A DNA stretch of 22,024 nucleotides. Origin: a virus. How positions within the stretch are numbered: position 1 is the stretch's first letter; the number at the start of each line of letters is the position of its first letter. Shown here in pieces: positions 10,913-22,024 of the stretch. The stretch covers positions 1 to 22,024 of the IMG/VR virus record IMGVR_UViG_3300047355_000009; one strand, written 5' to 3'. The notes beneath the pieces were generated by a model that was given only the letters and a program-made list of their open reading frames with translations, was not told the DNA's origin and did not search any database. Position numbers and translations under genes: made by a program.

Positions 10913-13279
10913 TTATATAATTCTATTTCTAGTAGAATTTGCACGCTCTAAAGCAACAATTAAATCTTGTCCCCTTAGTTCAAATGACCCTCCGACTTGT
11001 ACGTTACTAGGATTGTTATTATTGCCTAGCATACCTTTTAATTTACTTAGTGGTGCTATTACTTCAGGATTGCTTCTTGCTCCAGGATATTCGCCAACTA
11101 GACCCATAGTAGGTGCGCTAACAATACCACCGTTTGCAAATGCTCCAAAACCAGATAGTTTACCAAATATATCTTTAACACCTGTACCACCACCTTGAAA
11201 TGAACCTATGCCTAAACCACCTAATATAGCTGATAGTGCTAAGGCAGCCATTGCAGCGGCAATTAATTTTTTAATAATTTGCCCTAACATTTGTCCTAAT
11301 GCTTTTACAAAATTTTCACCTTCCATAACAGCAGAAAATGCTGACATAAAAGAATTGCCAACTTCACTCATTATACCGTCAACACTTAATCCTAATTCTT
11401 GCATTTTTGTTACAAAAGCACTAATTTTTTCATCAGTTTCTTCTGGTTTACCTAATATTATATCTGGCAATGTTAATAATTGACTTAAATTATCTGTACC
11501 TGTAAGTGGTGTGATACCTTGTGCAACTAATGATTGTGTAGAATCACTACCTCCACCTCCACCACCAGAAAAGATAGAATTTACCGCATTACTTGTAATA
11601 GTTTTTAATTTAGTAACAGCATTATCTAAGCCTTTTTGTACTTGTTCAACTGTCTTTTTTTCTAGTTGATTACCTACTGAATTTGCAAAACTATCTGTCA
11701 ATTCTGTTGCTAGTTCTTCTCCTGCATCTTTAGTAATTTTTTCACTCTCAACAAATCCCTCTTTTAATATATCTCCAAAAGATGCATCAAAACCATCTTC
11801 ACTAAATGCTTTTATTAATTTCCACATTGTTTTAAAAACATTGACGAATTTCATTACAGATGCTTTAGCGGCTATAAAAACTGTTTTAAACACAGCACCT
11901 ATAGCACCTATTGCTAATCTTAAAGTTATAGATGAATTATATAAGTCTACAAATTGATTGTAAAGACCAACTATAACAGGCAAAATTTCATTCCAATTTT
12001 TACTTATTACATATGCTATGCCAGCTAATGCTGCTGTTACTAAACCTATCGGTGATAGTAAAGCACCTAAAATACCTGTAAGTGTACCTGCTAATGATAT
12101 AATTGTTGGTAACGCTATTGCTACACCACCTAAAGCAATGGCTAATTTTTTTGTATTAGGACTTAATTCATTAAATCTTTGATATAAATTTTGTACAAAC
12201 GTTGCAGCCTTTTGTAATAAAGGCACTACAGCAACTAATAATTGTTGTCCTAAACTGGCTAAAGTTTCTTTTGCGCCATTTAATGCTTTTTGAAATTTAA
12301 AGCTAGCAGACTCCTGTGTAGTTTTAAACGCTACAGATGTCATATCAAGAGTGTTTTCCATTCTTGAAAAAATACCTTCGACTTCTTTTGCGTTTTTACC
12401 TGTCAAACTCATTACAGGCAATAACGCTCTAATATTACCAAATACAGCAGTTGTAGCGTCAGCATTACCATCAAACTTTTCTGCTAATAGTTGTAATGTA
12501 TTTAATAATCCTTTTTCTTTTATGTTTTGTCTTATAAAATCTGCGCCTAGCCCCATACCTTGTAAGGCTTCACGTGCTTGTTCGCTTGGACTTAATAATG
12601 ATACTAGTACACTTCTTAATCCAGTAGCAGCTATTGAAGCATTTGAATTAGTTCTAGATACAGCCGCAAATGCAGCTCCAAGTTCATTAAATTCAACACC
12701 CATTTCTGAAGCAATAGGCACAACTTGTTCCATAGCTTGACCTAATTGCGCAGAATCCAAACGCCCTTCTCTTACAGCAGCAACTAAAACATCAGTAGCA
12801 GCTGCGGTAGTTAAATTTTCTTTACCATATGCCGCCATAGCAGCTGTGTTTAATCTTGCTATAGTTTCAGTATCACCAAGACCAGATGCCGCTGCTTTTA
12901 ACGAAATTTCTAAAGTTTTTAAGGCATCAGAACCACGTAAACCTGCGGAGGTTATAAAAAACAAAGCATCAGCTGCTTCACGTGAAGATGTAGCTGTATC
13001 AATAGCAAGTTTTTTGACAGTTTGACCCATTTCATCAACAGAGTCACCTGCAATACCAACTAAGGATTTTATTTTAGTCATAGACTTATCAAAGTCTAAT
13101 GCCATCTTAACACTTGCGCCACCTACCAATGTCATTGGCAATGTTAAAGCTTGCAAAGAAGAGCCTAGTCCTTTCAGTTTACCACCAAATGATTTTAATT
13201 TGCTTGATGCACTTGAAACAGCTTTATTTAAGCCACTAGCATCACCATTTATTTTTACTCTTAATGGTTGTGTTGCCAT
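10913..13279 (-). CDS. Tail tape measure protein (TP901 type)
   Basis: Sets tail length during assembly and is ejected with the DNA. In the 788-aa protein residues 58-240 match the TP901 tape measure core (ALDFDKSMTKIKSLVG; SREAADALFFITSAGLRG; AMAAYGKENLTTAAATDVL; GVEFNELGAAFAAVSRTNSN). A hydrophobic segment at about 379-425 and another near 675-705 are probable membrane-penetrating helices. A six-glycine run sits at 572-577. At about 0.15 nm per residue a full-length ruler gives a tail near 118 nm. The preceding gene pair is the G/GT chaperone that coats this protein, and the next gene is the tail-tip protein, the classic siphovirus order. A TATTTTTG box lies 16 bases upstream. Confidence 0.93.
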   Translation of the reverse strand: MATQPLRVKINGDASGLNKAVSSASSKLKSFGGKLKGLGSSLQALTLPMTLVGGASVKMALDFDKSMTKIKSLVGIAGDSVDEMGQTVKKLAIDTATSSREAADALFFITSAGLRGSDALKTLEISLKAAASGLGDTETIARLNTAAMAAYGKENLTTAAATDVLVAAVREGRLDSAQLGQAMEQVVPIASEMGVEFNELGAAFAAVSRTNSNASIAATGLRSVLVSLLSPSEQAREALQGMGLGADFIRQNIKEKGLLNTLQLLAEKFDGNADATTAVFGNIRALLPVMSLTGKNAKEVEGIFSRMENTLDMTSVAFKTTQESASFKFQKALNGAKETLASLGQQLLVAVVPLLQKAATFVQNLYQRFNELSPNTKKLAIALGGVAIALPTIISLAGTLTGILGALLSPIGLVTAALAGIAYVISKNWNEILPVIVGLYNQFVDLYNSSITLRLAIGAIGAVFKTVFIAAKASVMKFVNVFKTMWKLIKAFSEDGFDASFGDILKEGFVESEKITKDAGEELATELTDSFANSVGNQLEKKTVEQVQKGLDNAVTKLKTITSNAVNSIFSGGGGGGSDSTQSLVAQGITPLTGTDNLSQLLTLPDIILGKPEETDEKISAFVTKMQELGLSVDGIMSEVGNSFMSAFSAVMEGENFVKALGQMLGQIIKKLIAAAMAALALSAILGGLGIGSFQGGGTGVKDIFGKLSGFGAFANGGIVSAPTMGLVGEYPGARSNPEVIAPLSKLKGMLGNNNNPSNVQVGGSFELRGQDLIVALERANSTRNRII

Positions 13280-13317: not shown

Positions 13318-13656
13318 TTAATTTTTCTCTTTACTTTTGTTGACTTGTTTAAGAAATCTGTCGTATTGTTCTCTTGTGCTTTTTGGTTTATCCTTTTCTA
13401 AATAAACATCTTGTGGTAGTGGAAATAATTTATCAGGTGTAATCATATTGGCACGTTTATCTACATTTATATTAAATAAAATCATAGATAAATAACGTAC
13501 ACGTTCCCACTCTAAATTTTGTTTGATCATATGGGACTCACCGAGTAATTGATTTTCACCCCAAGTATGCGTCCAAAAATCACTTGGTGAAATCCCTATT
13601 TGACCGATATAATAATCTAAAATATCGTCCCAACTAATGGACGCTTTTACTTTCCC
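13318..13656 (-). CDS. Tail assembly chaperone T part (read by -1 frameshift)
   Basis: This frame is open from 13677 down to the TAA at 13320-13318. Its first ATG is at 13530, well inside the conserved-looking region. Before that ATG the frame encodes WDDILDYYIGQIGISPSDFW and then THTWGENQLLGESH, a plausible folded segment continuous with IKQNLEWERVRYLSM and LFPLPQDVYLE after it. The frame is -1 relative to the upstream G gene and overlaps its end at a slippery A AAA AAG. It is therefore the C-terminal part of a GT fusion of about 235 residues (123 from G plus 112). The GT form is expected to bridge the tape measure protein and the tail tube. Annotating only the 70 codons from 13530 would miss the true product. 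Confidence 0.85.
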   Translation of the reverse strand, partial: GKVKASISWDDILDYYIGQIGISPSDFWTHTWGENQLLGESHMIKQNLEWERVRYLSMILFNINVDKRANMITPDKLFPLPQDVYLEKDKPKSTREQYDRFLKQVNKSKEKN

Positions 13657-13662
13657 TTTTTT
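13626..13662 (-). promoter_or_regulatory. Programmed -1 ribosomal frameshift site (A AAA AAG)
   Basis: On the minus strand the bases 13662-13656 read A AAA AAG in the G frame, the same heptamer as the dnaX frameshift site. A -1 slip leads into AAA AAA GGG AAA GTA and the long T frame, while the G frame stops 6 bases later with TAA. Twelve bases downstream CGTCC (13643-13639) and GGACG (13630-13626) can form a small GC-rich hairpin with an 8-base loop, a possible stimulator. Confidence 0.85.
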
Positions 13663-14024
13663 GTAGTTTTTGTGACTTTACGTTTTATACCAACGTTTAA
13701 ATCATTACCAAGAATTTTAGATTCTAACATTACAGAAACAATATCTTCTAATTTAGATGCTTCTAAATCAGCTAACCAATTACCTACTGTAAATTCATTA
13801 TAATCTATTTCATTATTCTCTTCTTGATCAAAAGCTAAAAGCGCTGAATGTATCAACGCTCTTATGTTTTTAATAGAAACGCCACCTTCAAAGATAGCGC
13901 CTATTTCATCTAATGATATACCTAATGATTCAGTAAAGTTCGCCCAAAAATTCATTGAAAAATGCATTGTACGACTTTTACCACCCAATTTAATGGTGTA
14001 GTAACCCCTTTTTCTATTTGCCAT
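13647..14024 (-). CDS. Tail assembly chaperone G
   Basis: A 125-aa protein in the position and size of siphovirus tail assembly chaperone G, between the tail tube and tape measure genes. It starts with a short basic beta segment (RKRGYYTIKLGGKSRTMHFS, 4-23), is helical in the middle (NFWANFTESLGISLDEIGAI; NIRALIHSALLAFDQE; LEASKLEDIVSVMLES) and ends with a lysine-rich tail (KVTKTTKKGK) that is encoded by the slippery sequence. The known role is to keep the tape measure protein soluble and guide tube polymerisation, without entering the virion. A fraction of ribosomes should shift into the -1 frame to make GT. Confidence 0.88.
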   Translation of the reverse strand: MANRKRGYYTIKLGGKSRTMHFSMNFWANFTESLGISLDEIGAIFEGGVSIKNIRALIHSALLAFDQEENNEIDYNEFTVGNWLADLEASKLEDIVSVMLESKILGNDLNVGIKRKVTKTTKKGK

Positions 14025-14040
14025 TTATGTGTTTTTAATG

Positions 14041-14448
14041 TTAGTTTGTTGACTTAGTAATTGCTCCAGTTAACGTAATTGAACCAGAATAGCTAACAGG
14101 ACTTTCCATTTCAGCAGATTGCTCTAATGAAGATAAAAATCCTTCTGCTGTATAAACAGCATCGCCAGTCTCAGCAGTACCAAATACACAAGTAATCTGT
14201 GTTCTAGCTAATAAGAAATCAGCCATTTGAATTGCGTTTGATGAATCACTATAGTCTACTAATCCTTCAAATGAAATTTCACCACTTATTACACCAGCAA
14301 TTACTTCTTGGAATCCGTTTGAATCCTTTGTTGTAGCTTCTGGTAAATCATTTGATAACGACATTGAACAACTAGTTGTGTGTCCAAGAGTTACTGTTTC
14401 GATTTTCAATAATAGGTTAGTTCCATTAAATACTGATGTTGTAGCCAT
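14041..14448 (-). CDS. Major tail tube protein (TP901-1 MTP-like), copy 1
   Basis: A 135-aa beta-rich protein expected to form the stacked hexameric rings of the tail tube. The N-terminal motif VFNGTNLLLKIETVTLGHTT and the region DLPEATTKDSNGFQEVIAGV then ISGEISFEGLVDYSD are typical of the TP901-1-like tail tube family. It ends with a strand pair (ESPVSYSGSITLTGAITKS). It lies immediately before the chaperone pair and tape measure gene, the classical order. Residues 21-68 match the next gene upstream in 32 of 48 positions by my alignment, so the two are paralogues. An identical 17-base promoter-like segment lies upstream of this gene and of the gene starting at 15563. Confidence 0.88.
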   Translation of the reverse strand: MATTSVFNGTNLLLKIETVTLGHTTSCSMSLSNDLPEATTKDSNGFQEVIAGVISGEISFEGLVDYSDSSNAIQMADFLLARTQITCVFGTAETGDAVYTAEGFLSSLEQSAEMESPVSYSGSITLTGAITKSTN

Positions 14449-14498: not shown

Positions 14499-14969
14499 TT
14501 ATGCAAGATTCCAATTGAAGTTAGCATTATTCCAAAATACATCTGTTGTATTCCAATATCTGTGACCACTTCTATCATCTTGTATGCTAAAAAAATCAGT
14601 CAATTGTATTTCTAAATCATAGCTTACAACATTTTCTGACTCAGCTATAGCCTCTACATTTACAATGTAACCAGTGCCAGTTAATGTCATTCCTAAAAAA
14701 GCCTCTTGTGTAAACACAAATTTATTTAGCTCTCTTGTAAGTACCATTGAGCTAAATTCTTCAAAACCAAATGTATCACTGTAATCTATTAAAGCAGATA
14801 CTGATATAGTGCCTGATTTAACACCAGCAATAACTTCTTGAAAACCAGCAGATGCTTTAGTTGTTGATTTAGGTAAGTCTACGTTTAAATTAAAACTAGC
14901 ACTTGTAGAATGTCCTAGCAATATTTCATTATGAAACAGCCCAAAAGATGTTCCATTGATATATGCCAT
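14499..14969 (-). CDS. Tail tube protein paralogue, copy 2
   Basis: A 156-aa protein of the same family as the neighbouring tail tube protein: it shares the start (YINGTSFGLFHNEILLGHST), then DLPKSTTKASAGFQEVIAGV and KSGTISVSALIDYSD. It differs by a C-terminal extension rich in Trp, Asn and Asp (DDRSGHRYWNTTDVFWNN and on). It may form a specialised ring, for example at the tail terminus or tube start, or decorate the tube surface through the extension. Its start codon overlaps the stop of the coiled-coil gene (TAATG), implying coupled translation. Which copy is the abundant tube protein cannot be decided from sequence; the other copy has its own promoter-like element, which favours that one. 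Confidence 0.8.
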   Translation of the reverse strand: MAYINGTSFGLFHNEILLGHSTSASFNLNVDLPKSTTKASAGFQEVIAGVKSGTISVSALIDYSDTFGFEEFSSMVLTRELNKFVFTQEAFLGMTLTGTGYIVNVEAIAESENVVSYDLEIQLTDFFSIQDDRSGHRYWNTTDVFWNNANFNWNLA

Positions 14970-15595: not shown

Positions 15596-18500
15596 TTAAT
15601 TATTTATTTGTTTTTTTAGTTCATCTATTTGTTCTTGTTGTTCTTGCATTGCTTTAATAAGCATTGGCACTAACACAGAGTATTTAACAGATTTGTAAAC
15701 CCCACCTTCTTCGCCATTTACATCTGGTTGTTTATCTTCTTTAACTAAACCAGGAAAAACTTCTTCAACTTCTTGTGCTATTAAACCAATTTGTTTTAAG
15801 TCATCGCCTATTAGATTGAAATTTTTAACTTTTAACTTTTTAATGTCTTCTAGTTTAGGTGTTGCATCAGTTATATTTTCTTTTAATCTAATATCTGATA
15901 TTTGACCATAAGAATTATTTTTGTTTCTTACATCGCCATCACGTTCTATAATTAAAGTATTTGTTTGACCACCTGAACCATCACCAGCTTCACAAACTAA
16001 ATTATACCAAGCGTCTGTAGAGTTATAAGCTTTAGTTGCATATATAAGCATTTGAGAAACCGAAGTGCTTGGATGTGCTTCTAGTTTAAAAGGAACACCA
16101 TTACTAGCTATTGCTCTTAAATGTAATGTAGCACTAGGGTTTGGTTGGTTTATTCCTACTTCTCCGTTAGACTCAATTATCATTCGTGTGTTTGCACCAG
16201 TAGCAAAAGCTAGTTTATCACTAGAATCTCTAAATATACCAGTATCTGTGTCATTTGCAAAAGAAATACCAGGCGCACCTTTGTTGCCATCTACTGCATA
16301 TATTATACCTCCAAACGTAGATGTAGTATCAGCGTTAAGAGTTAGCGCAACACCTTGTTGATCTACTAAAAATCTTAAATAACCATTACTAGAATTACTA
16401 GCAGCTATTGTGTTTACGCCAGCGTTTGTTAGATTTATACTACCGCTTGTGTTTATTGACCCTGCAAAAGTTGTGTCACCTCCAGTAGTCATAACCATTA
16501 TATCAGAAGAACTATGTCTTATACTAAATTTATGTGAGTGTGTTGCATATGGATATCTAACTAACGTCCATTGACCATAACCAGTGCCACTTGTTCCGCT
16601 AACAGCACCAAGAACTAAACTTGAATAATCATTAGATGTACTTGGAAACATTCTAATGTTTTCATTGTAACTCTGACCATTAGATATTTGAACCGTGCTT
16701 GTACTTATATCACCTGAAAAAGTTGCATTACCTGTAAAATTTGTGGGTTTAAAAAAATCTAGGCTACTTACATCTCCTGCCGCACTACTTGCATTAGCAC
16801 GCATCCATATGTCGTGACTTAAAGTGCCAGATCCATTATTTGTTTCTTTAGAAAATGTTAAATCATAACCACCAGCAGCAATTCCGTGTCTTGCTCCAGA
16901 TATATCATTTACAATCAAGCCTCCACCTCTGTCTCCTGTACCAGCCAGTAGATAATCTTTTGATGTAGGAAAGCCACCAGATGCTGCGTTTTCTATTGAA
17001 TTGAAAGTTGCACCTTTAACATCTCCTGCAAAAGTTGAGTTTCCAGAACCCTCAATAGTTAAAGCTGTTGTATCTAAAATAGCTGAATTACTAACTCTAA
17101 AATTAATAGTTGCTCCAACTGTAGTATGGTCAATAAACGCTGTACCTGTAGAATTAAATCTAAGTACATTTTCAGCAAATATTGAATTACTAGTTCCTAC
17201 TGTAACTTGTCCACTTATGTCAGCATTTCCTGCAAAAGTTGCGTTTGTTCCAATAGTTGCTAAAGTTGTTGTAAATGAAGATTGAGCAGTTGATAAATTC
17301 CAAGCAGTAGGTCTCAATAAAACTTCTCCACTTGAATTTGTGCCAAGAACAGCAGATGTTCCTGATGATTTATAATAAGTTGCAGCAGTTACTGTTCCTC
17401 CAAAAGTTGCGCCATCAGCAGCTTTGAAATATCCTGTAGTAGAAAAACCAAATACATTTGTGAATCCAGACCCATTATAATAGAAGTAATCTAAACCATT
17501 ATTACCACCAAAATCATTGCTATTAGATACTCTTTTAGATATATGCCAAAACACATTTGAACTACTAACGTTAGAGCCTAAATTTAAATTAGCGTAACCA
17601 TCGCCATCGTGCATAGCACCAATCGTTGCTTGATTACTACCACCTGCTGTTGTTAAAATACCATAATTTCCATAACCAGCACTACCATTATCTCCAGTAG
17701 AAGTTACTTGTAGTTGTGCCGAAACACTTGTTGTATTAATACCAACTTTTCCGTTAGAGTTTAATATCATAGTTGGATATGGCGTTACAAAATCACCAGC
17801 ATTTCCTGTCACAAACCTATTAAAAGTTATTTTACCGTCTTGCATATACATCTGCGTAGCATAACCATTACTTCTTAATTTCCAACCACCATTATAATAT
17901 AAATTTTCTGCGTACCAACTATTGTTAACAGCATAAGATTGCATTTCTAATCCACCAGCTCTTATGCTCGAGTTTGATTGTGATGCAACAACTTCTAAAT
18001 GAGTAGTAGGATTTGTTAATCCAATCCCCACATTTCCGCCAATAGGGTTTAAGGCTAAATTATATTGAGCTAAACTTGTGTCTACTACATATGCAGATTG
18101 AATATATGAAGTATAAGGCGAACTAGCAATAGTACCAAACATAGTACCATTACCACCACCACCTTGTACTTTTAAATTTGCAGTTGTTTCGTCTATAGTA
18201 TCATTTGAACCGCCTAATATATGTAATGGAGCTGTTGGTCCAGTAGTCCCAATCCCGACTCTGCCAGACGGTACTATAAAGTTTGTACTAGCGTTTAAAG
18301 TAATAACACCAGCAGTGTAACCTGCTAGTGTATCTGCATATAAAACGCCAGTACCTCTCACATAAACATTTCCATTAACGTCTAATGGAGCTCCAGGACT
18401 AGTCGTCCCAATACCCACTCGACCTAAACTATCAATACGCATTCTTTCTGTTGTAGTAGTATCTCCAGTAAAAAAACTTATATTTGCATCTGTTGTTCTT

Positions 18501-21500
18501 CCTGCTTGTATGGAAACATCACCACCTGCACCTGTATATTCATTACCATAAAAAGCAATTAAACCACCTCTGCCTGCCGAAGCATCACCACCACCAGAAA
18601 TAAATAATCTTTCATTATCAGAAGCATCAGAAGTATTGCTACCTATAAAATTATAAGATAAAGAAGAAGATAATAAGATTCTTCCTGAACTGTCTATACG
18701 CATTCTTTCGTTATTGCCATTAGTTCCAAACCTCATAGCGTCAACATCGTGAAGATATTGTATCCAACCAGCTTGTACACTTTGAGGGTCAGCAAATGCT
18801 ATAGTGGCTGCCGCATCATTAGGTGTTGCAAATGTTAAACCTAAATTAGTATTATGTTCAAAAACTATATCATCTGCGTTTGACCAGATAGATGTAACGC
18901 CTGAATCATTACCACCAACTTGTAGTTTTGTAGCTGTGTCGATTTTCGGTTGACCACCTATTAAAACAGCTCCTGAACTATCAATACGCATTCTTTCACT
19001 TAAAGTAGCTGCACTATCTGCCGCTGCTGAAGCACTAGTATAAAATACAAAATTTCCTAAAGCATCAAAATCTAATAAAGAACCTGCTCCTGTTGTTCTG
19101 TTTTTCCAACCACTATTGTAATAAAGATTATTACCTATATCTAAAGCACCTAAAGAGCCTCCTAGAAGAACTCCTTCAGAGCCAATAAAAAGTTGCGGAT
19201 GCACATTTGTTGTTGGTGGTGTAGTACCAACCCCAATCGAACCTGAACTATCAATACGCATTCTTTCTGAAGAATTTGTATAAAGAGCAACATACGCTCC
19301 ACTTCCTGTTTCTGTTGCTGAACCAATAGCTAAACTACCTCCGCCAATTCTATAAAGAAAAGGAGAATCTTGATTTGTTGGAAAAGCACCTGATCTTAAT
19401 AATAAAGTTCCTGCTGAGGTAATACGCATTCTTTCTGTAGCACTCGTTCTGAAAATATAATCTAAAGCATTAAAATTAATTCTTCTATATGCAGTTTGTC
19501 CTCTATCATAAGATAATACAACAACCTGTTCAGAAGTATCATTTGGAGCAATTTCTAATCCTGTTCCATTACTATCACATACTGCAAGTTTGTTTGAAGG
19601 CGAAGTCGTCCCGATCCCGACGTTGCCGCCAGCTTGTATAATTATTCTTTGAAGATTACTAGTACGAAAATTCATATCACCTGCTTCTCTATTTATAAGA
19701 TAAGAAGATGTACCATATTGTAATAATTCGAAACCATCTGCTGCCGCAGCACCCGTAGTTGTATCAGTTAATTTTAAAACCGCTCCTACGCCTGATGCTG
19801 CGTTTATTTGTAAAACTTTATTATAAGAAGCATTTGTTACTGGACTAGTCGTTCCGATCCCGACGTTGCCGCTATTGTCCATTACCATAACATCAAGTCC
19901 ATTTCTGCCAATAAATAATTTACCTGCAGAACCTACGTTTGTTATGTTCCAAGTTCTATTTGTGTATGTAGTATCTGCTGTATCTAATATAATAGTGGGT
20001 CTGTTCGCCGCTTGTAAACCTATAAGAACATTATTAACTGTATCTGAAGCCCCACTAACAATTGTGCTTGTGATAACTTCTAAGTTACCATCAGGACTAG
20101 TCGTCCCGATCCCTACGTTGCCAGAACTGTCTAGGCGCATTCTTTCTACTGAGTCAGCCGATCCAGTTCCTGAGCCGTGAGTAAAGAAAGCTAATCCTTG
20201 TCTATCCCCGTCAGTTGATGCCGATGACATAACCCCAGATATTGCCGCGCGACCTGATGATGCACCTCCGAAAGAAATACCTGCCGAATATGAGCCAGCT
20301 CCTCCGTTTGCATTTGCTCTTAAATCTATTCCTCCTAAAGATTGCCCTGAACTAGATATTGAGTACGCAGCTCCTGTAACAACTAACTTACCGGTATTAG
20401 GATTAGTCGTACCGACACCAACGTTGCCGCTTGAATCAATACGCATTCTTTCTATGTTACTCGTATTAAATAATATATTTCCTGCAAATTCATTATCAAA
20501 TTGAATATCTCCACCTGTACTATTTCTTAATAAAATACTACCAGTTGATGTATTTCTTAAATATGAATTTCCAACACTATTATCAATAAATAAATGACTA
20601 CCATCGTGTTTTATTTGTGCGTCATTACCAGTACCTAGTTTTAACTTAAAAGAATCAGGAAACACAACACCATTTGTCCCTGTCATTGTACCACCAGCAA
20701 GTGGTAAGTAAGGACCAGGATCTCCACCTGGTGTAGATAAAGTTTTAACTACATTACCTGAAGCGTCTGTACCTAGTAAATAAGTTGGAGTACCTGTTTT
20801 GTTTGTGCCATCGTAAGTGTTGAATCTTATACTTCCATTATTTGCAATGTTCATTACGTGTGTGCCCCCTTGTGTTGACAAATTAGTTGAATTTGTATAA
20901 AATTTTATTTGTGTCGCTGCATTAATTTCATAAGGACCACCGCCTATATACACTACATTAGTAGTGGAGTTTGCGAAAGAGCCTATTAAAGCCACACCTG
21001 CTGACCCTGCTCCATTGCCAGAGCCTGATGCTTGGTTATAATGAGTGCCTGCTAAAAAGCTCCATTTACTAGTTCCACTTCCGCCCTGGCCTAACAGCAT
21101 TGAACCGCCATTAACGTTACCAGGGTAAGCAACTTGCAGCTTTGACTGAGGGCTAGTTACCCCGATCCCGACTTTGCCGTCAGACGTGATAATCATTCTG
21201 TTATCTCCATTGGTGTAGAAATATAAATCTTTGAAAATATTATAAATTGATGCTAAAACAGTTGCCTGTGTTGAATTCCAAAAAGTTATTTGACTTTCAC
21301 TATTAGAGCCAGCGTCACGCCCAACTAAATCTAAACCATAAGCACTTGAAGGTGTTTTAATTTGTAATTTAGAATAACTTACGTTTGGTGTTAATCCAAT
21401 ACCGACGTTGCCCGCGGAATCAATACGCATTCTTTCAGAATTACCATTAGTTCTGAATTCTAGGTGATTATCACTATGTTGATAAACTATACCTCCTGTG

Positions 21501-22024
21501 TATGGAGCTTGGGCATCTCCAAAATAAACGCTTGAGTATGTAGTACCTAAAATCCCTATAGAAGATTCATTAGATTGTTCAACTATTAACGTACCGTATA
21601 CAGAAGAAGGACTTATACTTGAATGCTGGACGTGTAGTTTTGTTTGAGGACTAGTCGTACCAATCCCGACTCTTAAATTAGGGTCTAGAGTCATAAGCAC
21701 TTGTTCGCTACTTCCTGTTGGATTACCACCACCTCTATAAAAATGAAATTTGTTAGCGTCAGTCGATCCTCTTGAACTTAATGACCAATAAGCACCTGTC
21801 CAACTTGTTTGGTTTGCAGCAGCAGTATGACCAAATAACATATCTGATGGATATGATGCTCCATTAGCATCTAGTCTTATTGTAGCTCTATTAGTTATAG
21901 ACCAATTTCTACCTGCCCTAACGCCAAATACATCTAATGGAGCTGTTGGACTAGTAGTCCCAATTCCGATTTTTTCTGTAAAAGTTGCATTTCCAGAGCT
22001 GTCTATTTGCATAACGTTTGTTCC
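15596..22024 (-). CDS. Giant repetitive tail fibre with S74 chaperone (N-terminus off window)
   Basis: The frame is open to the right edge, with at least 2142 residues visible; the first in-window ATG (22012) is probably internal because GTNV precedes it in frame. Most of the protein repeats a module of the form ERMRIDSSGNVGIGTTSPxxxL: I count about eight ERMRI/L boxes and over ten GxGxTxP-like boxes with variable segments between, suggesting a long trimeric beta-structured fibre. The last 100 residues, from SDIRLKENI (Ser codon 15898-15896), form a peptidase S74 / endosialidase chaperone domain, with GLIAQEVEEVFP and a terminal coiled coil (KAMQEQQEQIDELKKQI). That domain folds the trimer and is usually cut off at the Ser-Asp site. 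The fibre should bind the host surface. It lies upstream of the tail tube genes, an unusual place. Confidence 0.9.
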   Translation of the reverse strand, partial: GTNVMQIDSSGNATFTEKIGIGTTSPTAPLDVFGVRAGRNWSITNRATIRLDANGASYPSDMLFGHTAAANQTSWTGAYWSLSSRGSTDANKFHFYRGGGNPTGSSEQVLMTLDPNLRVGIGTTSPQTKLHVQHSSISPSSVYGTLIVEQSNESSIGILGTTYSSVYFGDAQAPYTGGIVYQHSDNHLEFRTNGNSERMRIDSAGNVGIGLTPNVSYSKLQIKTPSSAYGLDLVGRDAGSNSESQITFWNSTQATVLASIYNIFKDLYFYTNGDNRMIITSDGKVGIGVTSPQSKLQVAYPGNVNGGSMLLGQGGSGTSKWSFLAGTHYNQASGSGNGAGSAGVALIGSFANSTTNVVYIGGGPYEINAATQIKFYTNSTNLSTQGGTHVMNIANNGSIRFNTYDGTNKTGTPTYLLGTDASGNVVKTLSTPGGDPGPYLPLAGGTMTGTNGVVFPDSFKLKLGTGNDAQIKHDGSHLFIDNSVGNSYLRNTSTGSILLRNSTGGDIQFDNEFAGNILFNTSNIERMRIDSSGNVGVGTTNPNTGKLVVTGAAYSISSSGQSLGGIDLRANANGGAGSYSAGISFGGASSGRAAISGVMSSASTDGDRQGLAFFTHGSGTGSADSVERMRLDSSGNVGIGTTSPDGNLEVITSTIVSGASDTVNNVLIGLQAANRPTIILDTADTTYTNRTWNITNVGSAGKLFIGRNGLDVMVMDNSGNVGIGTTSPVTNASYNKVLQINAASGVGAVLKLTDTTTGAAAADGFELLQYGTSSYLINREAGDMNFRTSNLQRIIIQAGGNVGIGTTSPSNKLAVCDSNGTGLEIAPNDTSEQVVVLSYDRGQTAYRRINFNALDYIFRTSATERMRITSAGTLLLRSGAFPTNQDSPFLYRIGGGSLAIGSATETGSGAYVALYTNSSERMRIDSSGSIGVGTTPPTTNVHPQLFIGSEGVLLGGSLGALDIGNNLYYNSGWKNRTTGAGSLLDFDALGNFVFYTSASAAADSAATLSERMRIDSSGAVLIGGQPKIDTATKLQVGGNDSGVTSIWSNADDIVFEHNTNLGLTFATPNDAAATIAFADPQSVQAGWIQYLHDVDAMRFGTNGNNERMRIDSSGRILLSSSLSYNFIGSNTSDASDNERLFISGGGDASAGRGGLIAFYGNEYTGAGGDVSIQAGRTTDANISFFTGDTTTTERMRIDSLGRVGIGTTSPGAPLDVNGNVYVRGTGVLYADTLAGYTAGVITLNASTNFIVPSGRVGIGTTGPTAPLHILGGSNDTIDETTANLKVQGGGGNGTMFGTIASSPYTSYIQSAYVVDTSLAQYNLALNPIGGNVGIGLTNPTTHLEVVASQSNSSIRAGGLEMQSYAVNNSWYAENLYYNGGWKLRSNGYATQMYMQDGKITFNRFVTGNAGDFVTPYPTMILNSNGKVGINTTSVSAQLQVTSTGDNGSAGYGNYGILTTAGGSNQATIGAMHDGDGYANLNLGSNVSSSNVFWHISKRVSNSNDFGGNNGLDYFYYNGSGFTNVFGFSTTGYFKAADGATFGGTVTAATYYKSSGTSAVLGTNSSGEVLLRPTAWNLSTAQSSFTTTLATIGTNATFAGNADISGQVTVGTSNSIFAENVLRFNSTGTAFIDHTTVGATINFRVSNSAILDTTALTIEGSGNSTFAGDVKGATFNSIENAASGGFPTSKDYLLAGTGDRGGGLIVNDISGARHGIAAGGYDLTFSKETNNGSGTLSHDIWMRANASSAAGDVSSLDFFKPTNFTGNATFSGDISTSTVQISNGQSYNENIRMFPSTSNDYSSLVLGAVSGTSGTGYGQWTLVRYPYATHSHKFSIRHSSSDIMVMTTGGDTTFAGSINTSGSINLTNAGVNTIAASNSSNGYLRFLVDQQGVALTLNADTTSTFGGIIYAVDGNKGAPGISFANDTDTGIFRDSSDKLAFATGANTRMIIESNGEVGINQPNPSATLHLRAIASNGVPFKLEAHPSTSVSQMLIYATKAYNSTDAWYNLVCEAGDGSGGQTNTLIIERDGDVRNKNNSYGQISDIRLKENITDATPKLEDIKKLKVKNFNLIGDDLKQIGLIAQEVEEVFPGLVKEDKQPDVNGEEGGVYKSVKYSVLVPMLIKAMQEQQEQIDELKKQINN
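18436..21436 (-). repeat. Dispersed DNA repeats in the fibre gene (ERMRI and GIGTTSP boxes)
   Basis: The plus-strand 13-mer TACGCATTCTTTC (ERMRI box) recurs at 18436, 18697, 18985, 19255, 19423, 20440 and 21424, with a variant starting GG at 20134. A second box encoding GIGTTSP (plus strand ACTAGTCGTCCCGATCCC-like) recurs near 18399, 19846, 20095, 21650 and 21949. The boxes are better conserved at DNA level than the code requires and are locally richer in G+C than the surrounding sequence, so they could serve as recombination sites between modules. Confidence 0.75.

Follow-up and report, generated by a model that had tools for sequence, protein, structure and literature searches.

Gene organization and protein identity

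The stretch analysed here (the window) is 22,024 bases long and is the entire virus record. Two overlapping reading frames, G and T, lie on its minus strand between the genes for the major tail protein (before G) and the tape measure protein (after T), the standard position of G/GT pairs:

14041..14448, minus strand: major tail (tube) protein, upstream of G (phrog_1407, E 3.7e-23; PF06199 above cut-off)
13647..14024, minus strand: G, putative tail assembly chaperone, short product of 125 aa (ORF; phrog_2115; predicted fold)
13318..13677, minus strand: T, extension in the −1 frame (open 13677-13321; stop codon 13320-13318; conserved across homologues)
10913..13279, minus strand: tape measure protein, downstream of T (phrog_1533, E 7e-63; PF10145 above cut-off)

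A fusion of G and T would comprise 235 aa. In the window, the T frame contains no ATG, GTG or TTG before the ATG at 13530, which bears out the earlier note's remark that T lacks an ATG up to that position and extends it to the other two start codons. The major tail protein (14041-14448) is one of a tandem pair of Phage_tail_2 tube proteins, the other lying at 14499-14969, and the minus strand also encodes a tail fibre-like protein of more than 2,100 aa (15596-22024) with many ERMRIDSSGNVGIGTTSP-like repeats, which is cut by the window end.

G matches phrog_2115, annotated "tail protein" (E 1.2e-5), as do 29 of 29 homologues. Its predicted fold (pLDDT 77) matches models in BFVD that carry the name tail assembly chaperone, for example A0A8S5M2L5 (E 3.6e-5, TM 0.63/0.66). 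T and 28 of 28 homologues match phrog_16333, a family of unknown function that can be interpreted, in this G/T family, as the T half of the tail assembly chaperone; the structure model of T was too poor for use (pTM 0.36). No Pfam tail-chaperone family matched G or T, and sequence and fold searches of the PDB returned nothing meaningful.

A Bacteroidota host is plausible from sequence matches: those of the primase/helicase include Flavobacterium and Cellulophaga phages, and T and G have weak matches in phages of Cellulophaga and Bacteroides. The terminase has its closest matches in phages of Iodobacter and Vibrio. Genome matches, as a route to the host, gave just two hits; each is a MAG contig and may be virus sequence placed in the wrong bin. 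Related tail modules (L245 and L246) occur in contigs binned as a Woesearchaeota and a Gammaproteobacteria MAG, which are probably mis-binned virus sequence.

Conservation of the −1 frame

Homologues were collected by scanning with G and T as well as with alignments of each, and loci in which both were found were collapsed at 90% DNA identity into 66 clusters, which are mutually related, so that cluster counts are not counts of independent events. T lies in the −1 frame relative to G in all 66 clusters, and all 66 carry an in-phase slippery heptamer within the G/T overlap (GGGAAAG in 57, A AAA AAA in eight and GGGAAAC in one). Any in-phase heptamer of the form XXXYYYZ occupies 0.6% of positions in the body of G, a rate at which ∼4.7 of the 66 clusters would carry one in the overlap by chance. 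The joint arrangement of frame and heptamer is thus far above chance.

In 53 of 66 clusters the 60 nt that follow the G stop contain no start codon for T. The ATG at 13530 is not conserved, its Met varying among homologues, and the conserved T domain starts ∼40 codons before it. One 51-kb viral contig (IMGVR_UViG_3300026187_000022) contains two T matches ∼32 kb apart (L033 and L045), representing a duplicated module, a concatemer or an assembly artefact.

The probable slip site

In the window, G ends in ACA AAA AAG GGA AAG TAA, with the stop codon TAA at 13649-13647, and two in-phase heptamers with one G in common lie at this end:

13656..13662, minus strand: A AAA AAG heptamer, the earlier note's choice (11/66 clusters)
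13650..13656, minus strand: G GGA AAG heptamer, the likeliest slip site, adjoining the TAA stop of G (57/66 clusters)

The earlier note correctly placed A AAA AAG (13662-13656) in phase six nucleotides before the G stop, but overlooked GGGAAAG, which directly follows and overlaps it. Comparison among related phages, which that note had proposed, confirmed the −1 frame in every cluster and went against its heptamer: A AAA AAG is present in 11 of 66 clusters and is accompanied by GGGAAAG in all 11. In other relatives it is replaced by synonymous AAG AAG, by AGG, or by a preceding T or C. Nor is the heptamer remarkable by itself, since AAAAAAG occurs 17 times in the window against 19.25 expected. 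GGGAAAG, for its part, was found at 0 of 6858 in-phase positions in the bodies of G. On conservation (11 against 57 of 66 clusters), A AAA AAG was ruled out as the main slip site; perhaps it serves as an accessory site.

The codon before the heptamer varies: among the 36 GGGAAAG clusters of an earlier set it encodes Lys, Gln, Glu, Val, Ala, Ser or Thr and always ends in G, and the 57-cluster set agrees except that Arg is added as an eighth type. The junction Gly and Lys of the GGGAAAG clusters are always GGA and AAG, which make up 17% of Gly and 27% of Lys codons; because these codons and the preceding third-base G belong to the definition of the heptamer, the informative point is that no cluster keeps the junction Gly-Lys with other codons.

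Slips at either heptamer would yield an identical 235-residue protein with the junction TTKKGKVKASISW, because GGA AAG and GGG AAA both read Gly-Lys. Mass spectrometry of the junction is therefore unable to separate the two sites, and a fusion peptide alone is insufficient to locate the slip site.

A covarying RNA stem downstream of the heptamer

The 80 nt that begin 5 nt past the heptamer fold more strongly than shuffled sequences (mean z −2.92, compared with −0.3 to −0.6 in control stretches) because of a stem 5–6 nt after GGGAAAG. In the window, the two arms of this putative stimulatory stem are:

13638..13644, minus strand: 5′ arm GCGUCCA, 5 nt after GGGAAAG
13569..13575, minus strand: 3′ arm UGGACGC, pairing with the 5′ arm

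The window stem has 7 bp, its arms are ∼62 nt apart with a long and partly structured interval, and its distance from A AAA AAG is 11 nt. When all 66 sequences were analysed jointly, RNAalifold gave no structure because three stem registers were mixed and misaligned by MAFFT, and the clusters were therefore split into three classes. Among stem-bearing clusters the 5′ arm is fixed 5–6 nt past GGGAAAG in all three classes and the 3′ arm has moved between registers. Covariation and a start ∼5–9 nt after the slip site mark −1 signals with a 3′ stem stimulator of the dnaX and IS3 type, and the stem shows both.

Class A (37 clusters, 3′ arm ending at +56) forms all seven pairs in 37 of 37 clusters, with pair types that include GCCAACU/AGUUGGC, CCCAGCU/AGCUGGG and CCCGGCU/AGCCGGG. 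All of its cells (100%) are paired, 24 of them being double-change cells, and slid control registers reach at most 54% paired. Class B (13 clusters, 3′ arm ending at +59) has 98.9% of cells paired and five covarying pairs. Class C, comprising the window and its close kin, has a 3′ arm ending at +81, 90% of cells paired and two covarying pairs; its arms read GCGUCCA/UGGACGC in the window, GCGACCA/UGGUCGC in L195 and AGUCCA/UGGACU in L310. The window's close relatives L310, L018, L015 and L177 keep only 5–6 of the seven pairs. The covariation score was reached by 0 of 500 shuffles in each class. An unbiased scan of all helices in 150 nt ranked the GGGAAAG-linked stem first in each class and found no further conserved helix or pseudoknot with comparable covariation. 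Rfam had no match for the stem region.

When T codons were randomised synonymously with the register left free, a stem score of ≥18 was found in 86% of clusters and 2% of randomised sequences, and for the window the count was 0 of 60 randomised sequences. The same control at one fixed register was weaker (median p 0.02 in class C, 0.085 in A and 0.16 in B) because the arms also encode conserved residues. The case for the predicted stem is carried by the free-register test together with covariation.

The earlier note had suggested a GC hairpin 12 bases downstream of its slip site. A local 5-bp hairpin does exist at 13643-13626 in the window, but it is not conserved, shows no covariation and scores no better than shuffles, and was rejected as a candidate. 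The long-range stem is, on this comparative evidence, most likely the 3′ stimulator of frameshifting.

Lineages with a run of nine adenines

Eight clusters (L266, L297, L121, L265, L309, L212, L237 and L051) carry an A-run at the G/T overlap, with exactly nine A in 39 of 39 members. They lack GGGAAAG, and none forms a class A, B or C stem; the downstream region is less structured on average, though not uniformly (mean z −1.59). In a tree of the G and T proteins, one branch sets class B apart from all other sequences (99/96) and another does so for class C (99/84), and the A-run lineages need three changes. GGGAAAG and the stem have both been lost in at least three lineages, which carry nine A instead.

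The nine-A run could act via ribosomal slippage on A AAA AAA or via polymerase slippage. A tentative reading, which we regard as possible but doubtful, is that this tail-gene family switched its mode of GT fusion at least three times, from GGGAAAG with a covarying stem to nine-A slippage without that stem, possibly by RNA polymerase (transcriptional realignment). If so, two mechanisms would reach one protein ratio in close relatives.

Two annotated phages contain related pairs. Genes 00005 and 00004 of Bacteroides phage Bacuni_F1 (L163, 3171-3850), annotated as hypothetical, form a −1 pair whose first gene ends in GAA AAA AAA AGT TAG, and are likely an unannotated GT frameshift. In Cellulophaga phage phi39:1 (L162, 3086-3812), gp19 and gp20 are flanked by tail proteins on one side and the tape measure gene on the other and stand in a +1 (or −2) relation, with an eight-A run near the gp19 stop.

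Proposed mechanism and alternatives

We consider it very likely that this marine phage makes a G-T fusion by a −1 slip on G GGA AAG, with the RNA stem probably setting the G:GT ratio. The earlier note's central proposal, a programmed −1 frameshift fusing tail chaperones G and T, is supported by the gene order, the −1 relation in 66 of 66 clusters, the absent T start, the conserved heptamer and the G fold. A minority of the ribosomes translating G would slip −1 at G GGA AAG, directly before the G stop, and read on into T, giving the 235-aa G-T beside abundant 125-aa G. The stem 5 nt past the heptamer probably pauses the ribosome at the slip site and sets the ratio of the two products. We infer the frameshifting itself, its efficiency and the stimulatory action of the stem; the chaperone roles, assigned by analogy with lambda, would have G covering the tape measure, with tail tube subunits recruited by the T part.

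Slippage on A AAA AAG in the manner of dnaX, aided by the local 5-bp hairpin, is very unlikely to be the main event. That heptamer is in phase, is a classic highly shift-prone sequence in E. coli (PMC5009743) and might add to slippage at GGGAAAG in the 11 clusters that have it, but it is not conserved and is never found without GGGAAAG; the hairpin that would assist it does not covary, and the conserved stem stands 11 nt from it rather than 5–6. It is extremely improbable that T is a separate protein with its own initiation, either at ATG 13530 or by re-initiation at a non-canonical start beyond the G stop. The G stop is close to T and the window does offer a downstream ATG, yet that Met varies and lies well inside the conserved T domain, a start codon close to the G stop is missing from most clusters, and the heptamer is conserved.

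The stem might instead have another role, such as in mRNA stability or tape measure expression, with GGGAAAG alone sufficing for the frameshift. Reports that downstream structure is absent at the P2 E+E′ site and rare at phage sites (PMC3091744) speak for this alternative, which we nevertheless think unlikely: the stem start keeps its distance from GGGAAAG in all three registers, and lineages without GGGAAAG are also without the stem. Stimulation of a slip on G GGA AAG is the reading we prefer. The three registers and the nine-A replacements offer natural material for testing how the slip site and the stem would jointly set the protein ratio.

Comparison with known systems

The G/GT frameshift of phage lambda (Levin 1993 and Xu 2004, as summarised in PMC5009743 and PMC7618472) is the closest parallel. 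In both cases two ORFs lie between the major tail protein and the tape measure gene, T is in the −1 frame without a start of its own, and the slip site is identical, G_GGA_AAG being lambda's own G/GT site (PMC7618472) and highly shift-prone in E. coli (PMC5009743). In lambda, G acts on the tape measure and T recruits the tube protein (PMC5009743). The window differs from lambda in that the stop codon immediately follows the heptamer and that a conserved, covarying 3′ stem is present, such structure being only rarely reported in phage cases (PMC3091744). No lambda-like phage was among the matches when annotated phages were searched with G and T.

A heptamer with a stem a few nucleotides downstream, at which the ribosome would pause, is also the layout of E. 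coli dnaX and IS3-type −1 signals, from which the present signal differs in lying in a tail gene and in its slip site, GGGAAAG rather than A AAA AAG. Gene position and −1 logic equal those of P2 E/E+E′ and SPP1 17.5/17.5*, whose slip sites are TTTTTTG and TTTTTTC (PMC3091744, PMC6316719). No hairpin is predicted downstream of the P2-like site (PMC3091744, PMC6316719), and RNA structure downstream of a phage frameshift site is described as known from rare cases only and as absent in P2-like phages (PMC3091744). By its sequence features, then, the arrangement and slip site place this locus in the known class of lambda-type GT frameshifts, with unusually good support for a putative RNA stimulator. 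Beyond the corrected slip site, the locus provides a well supported comparative case for such a stimulator at a tail-chaperone frameshift.
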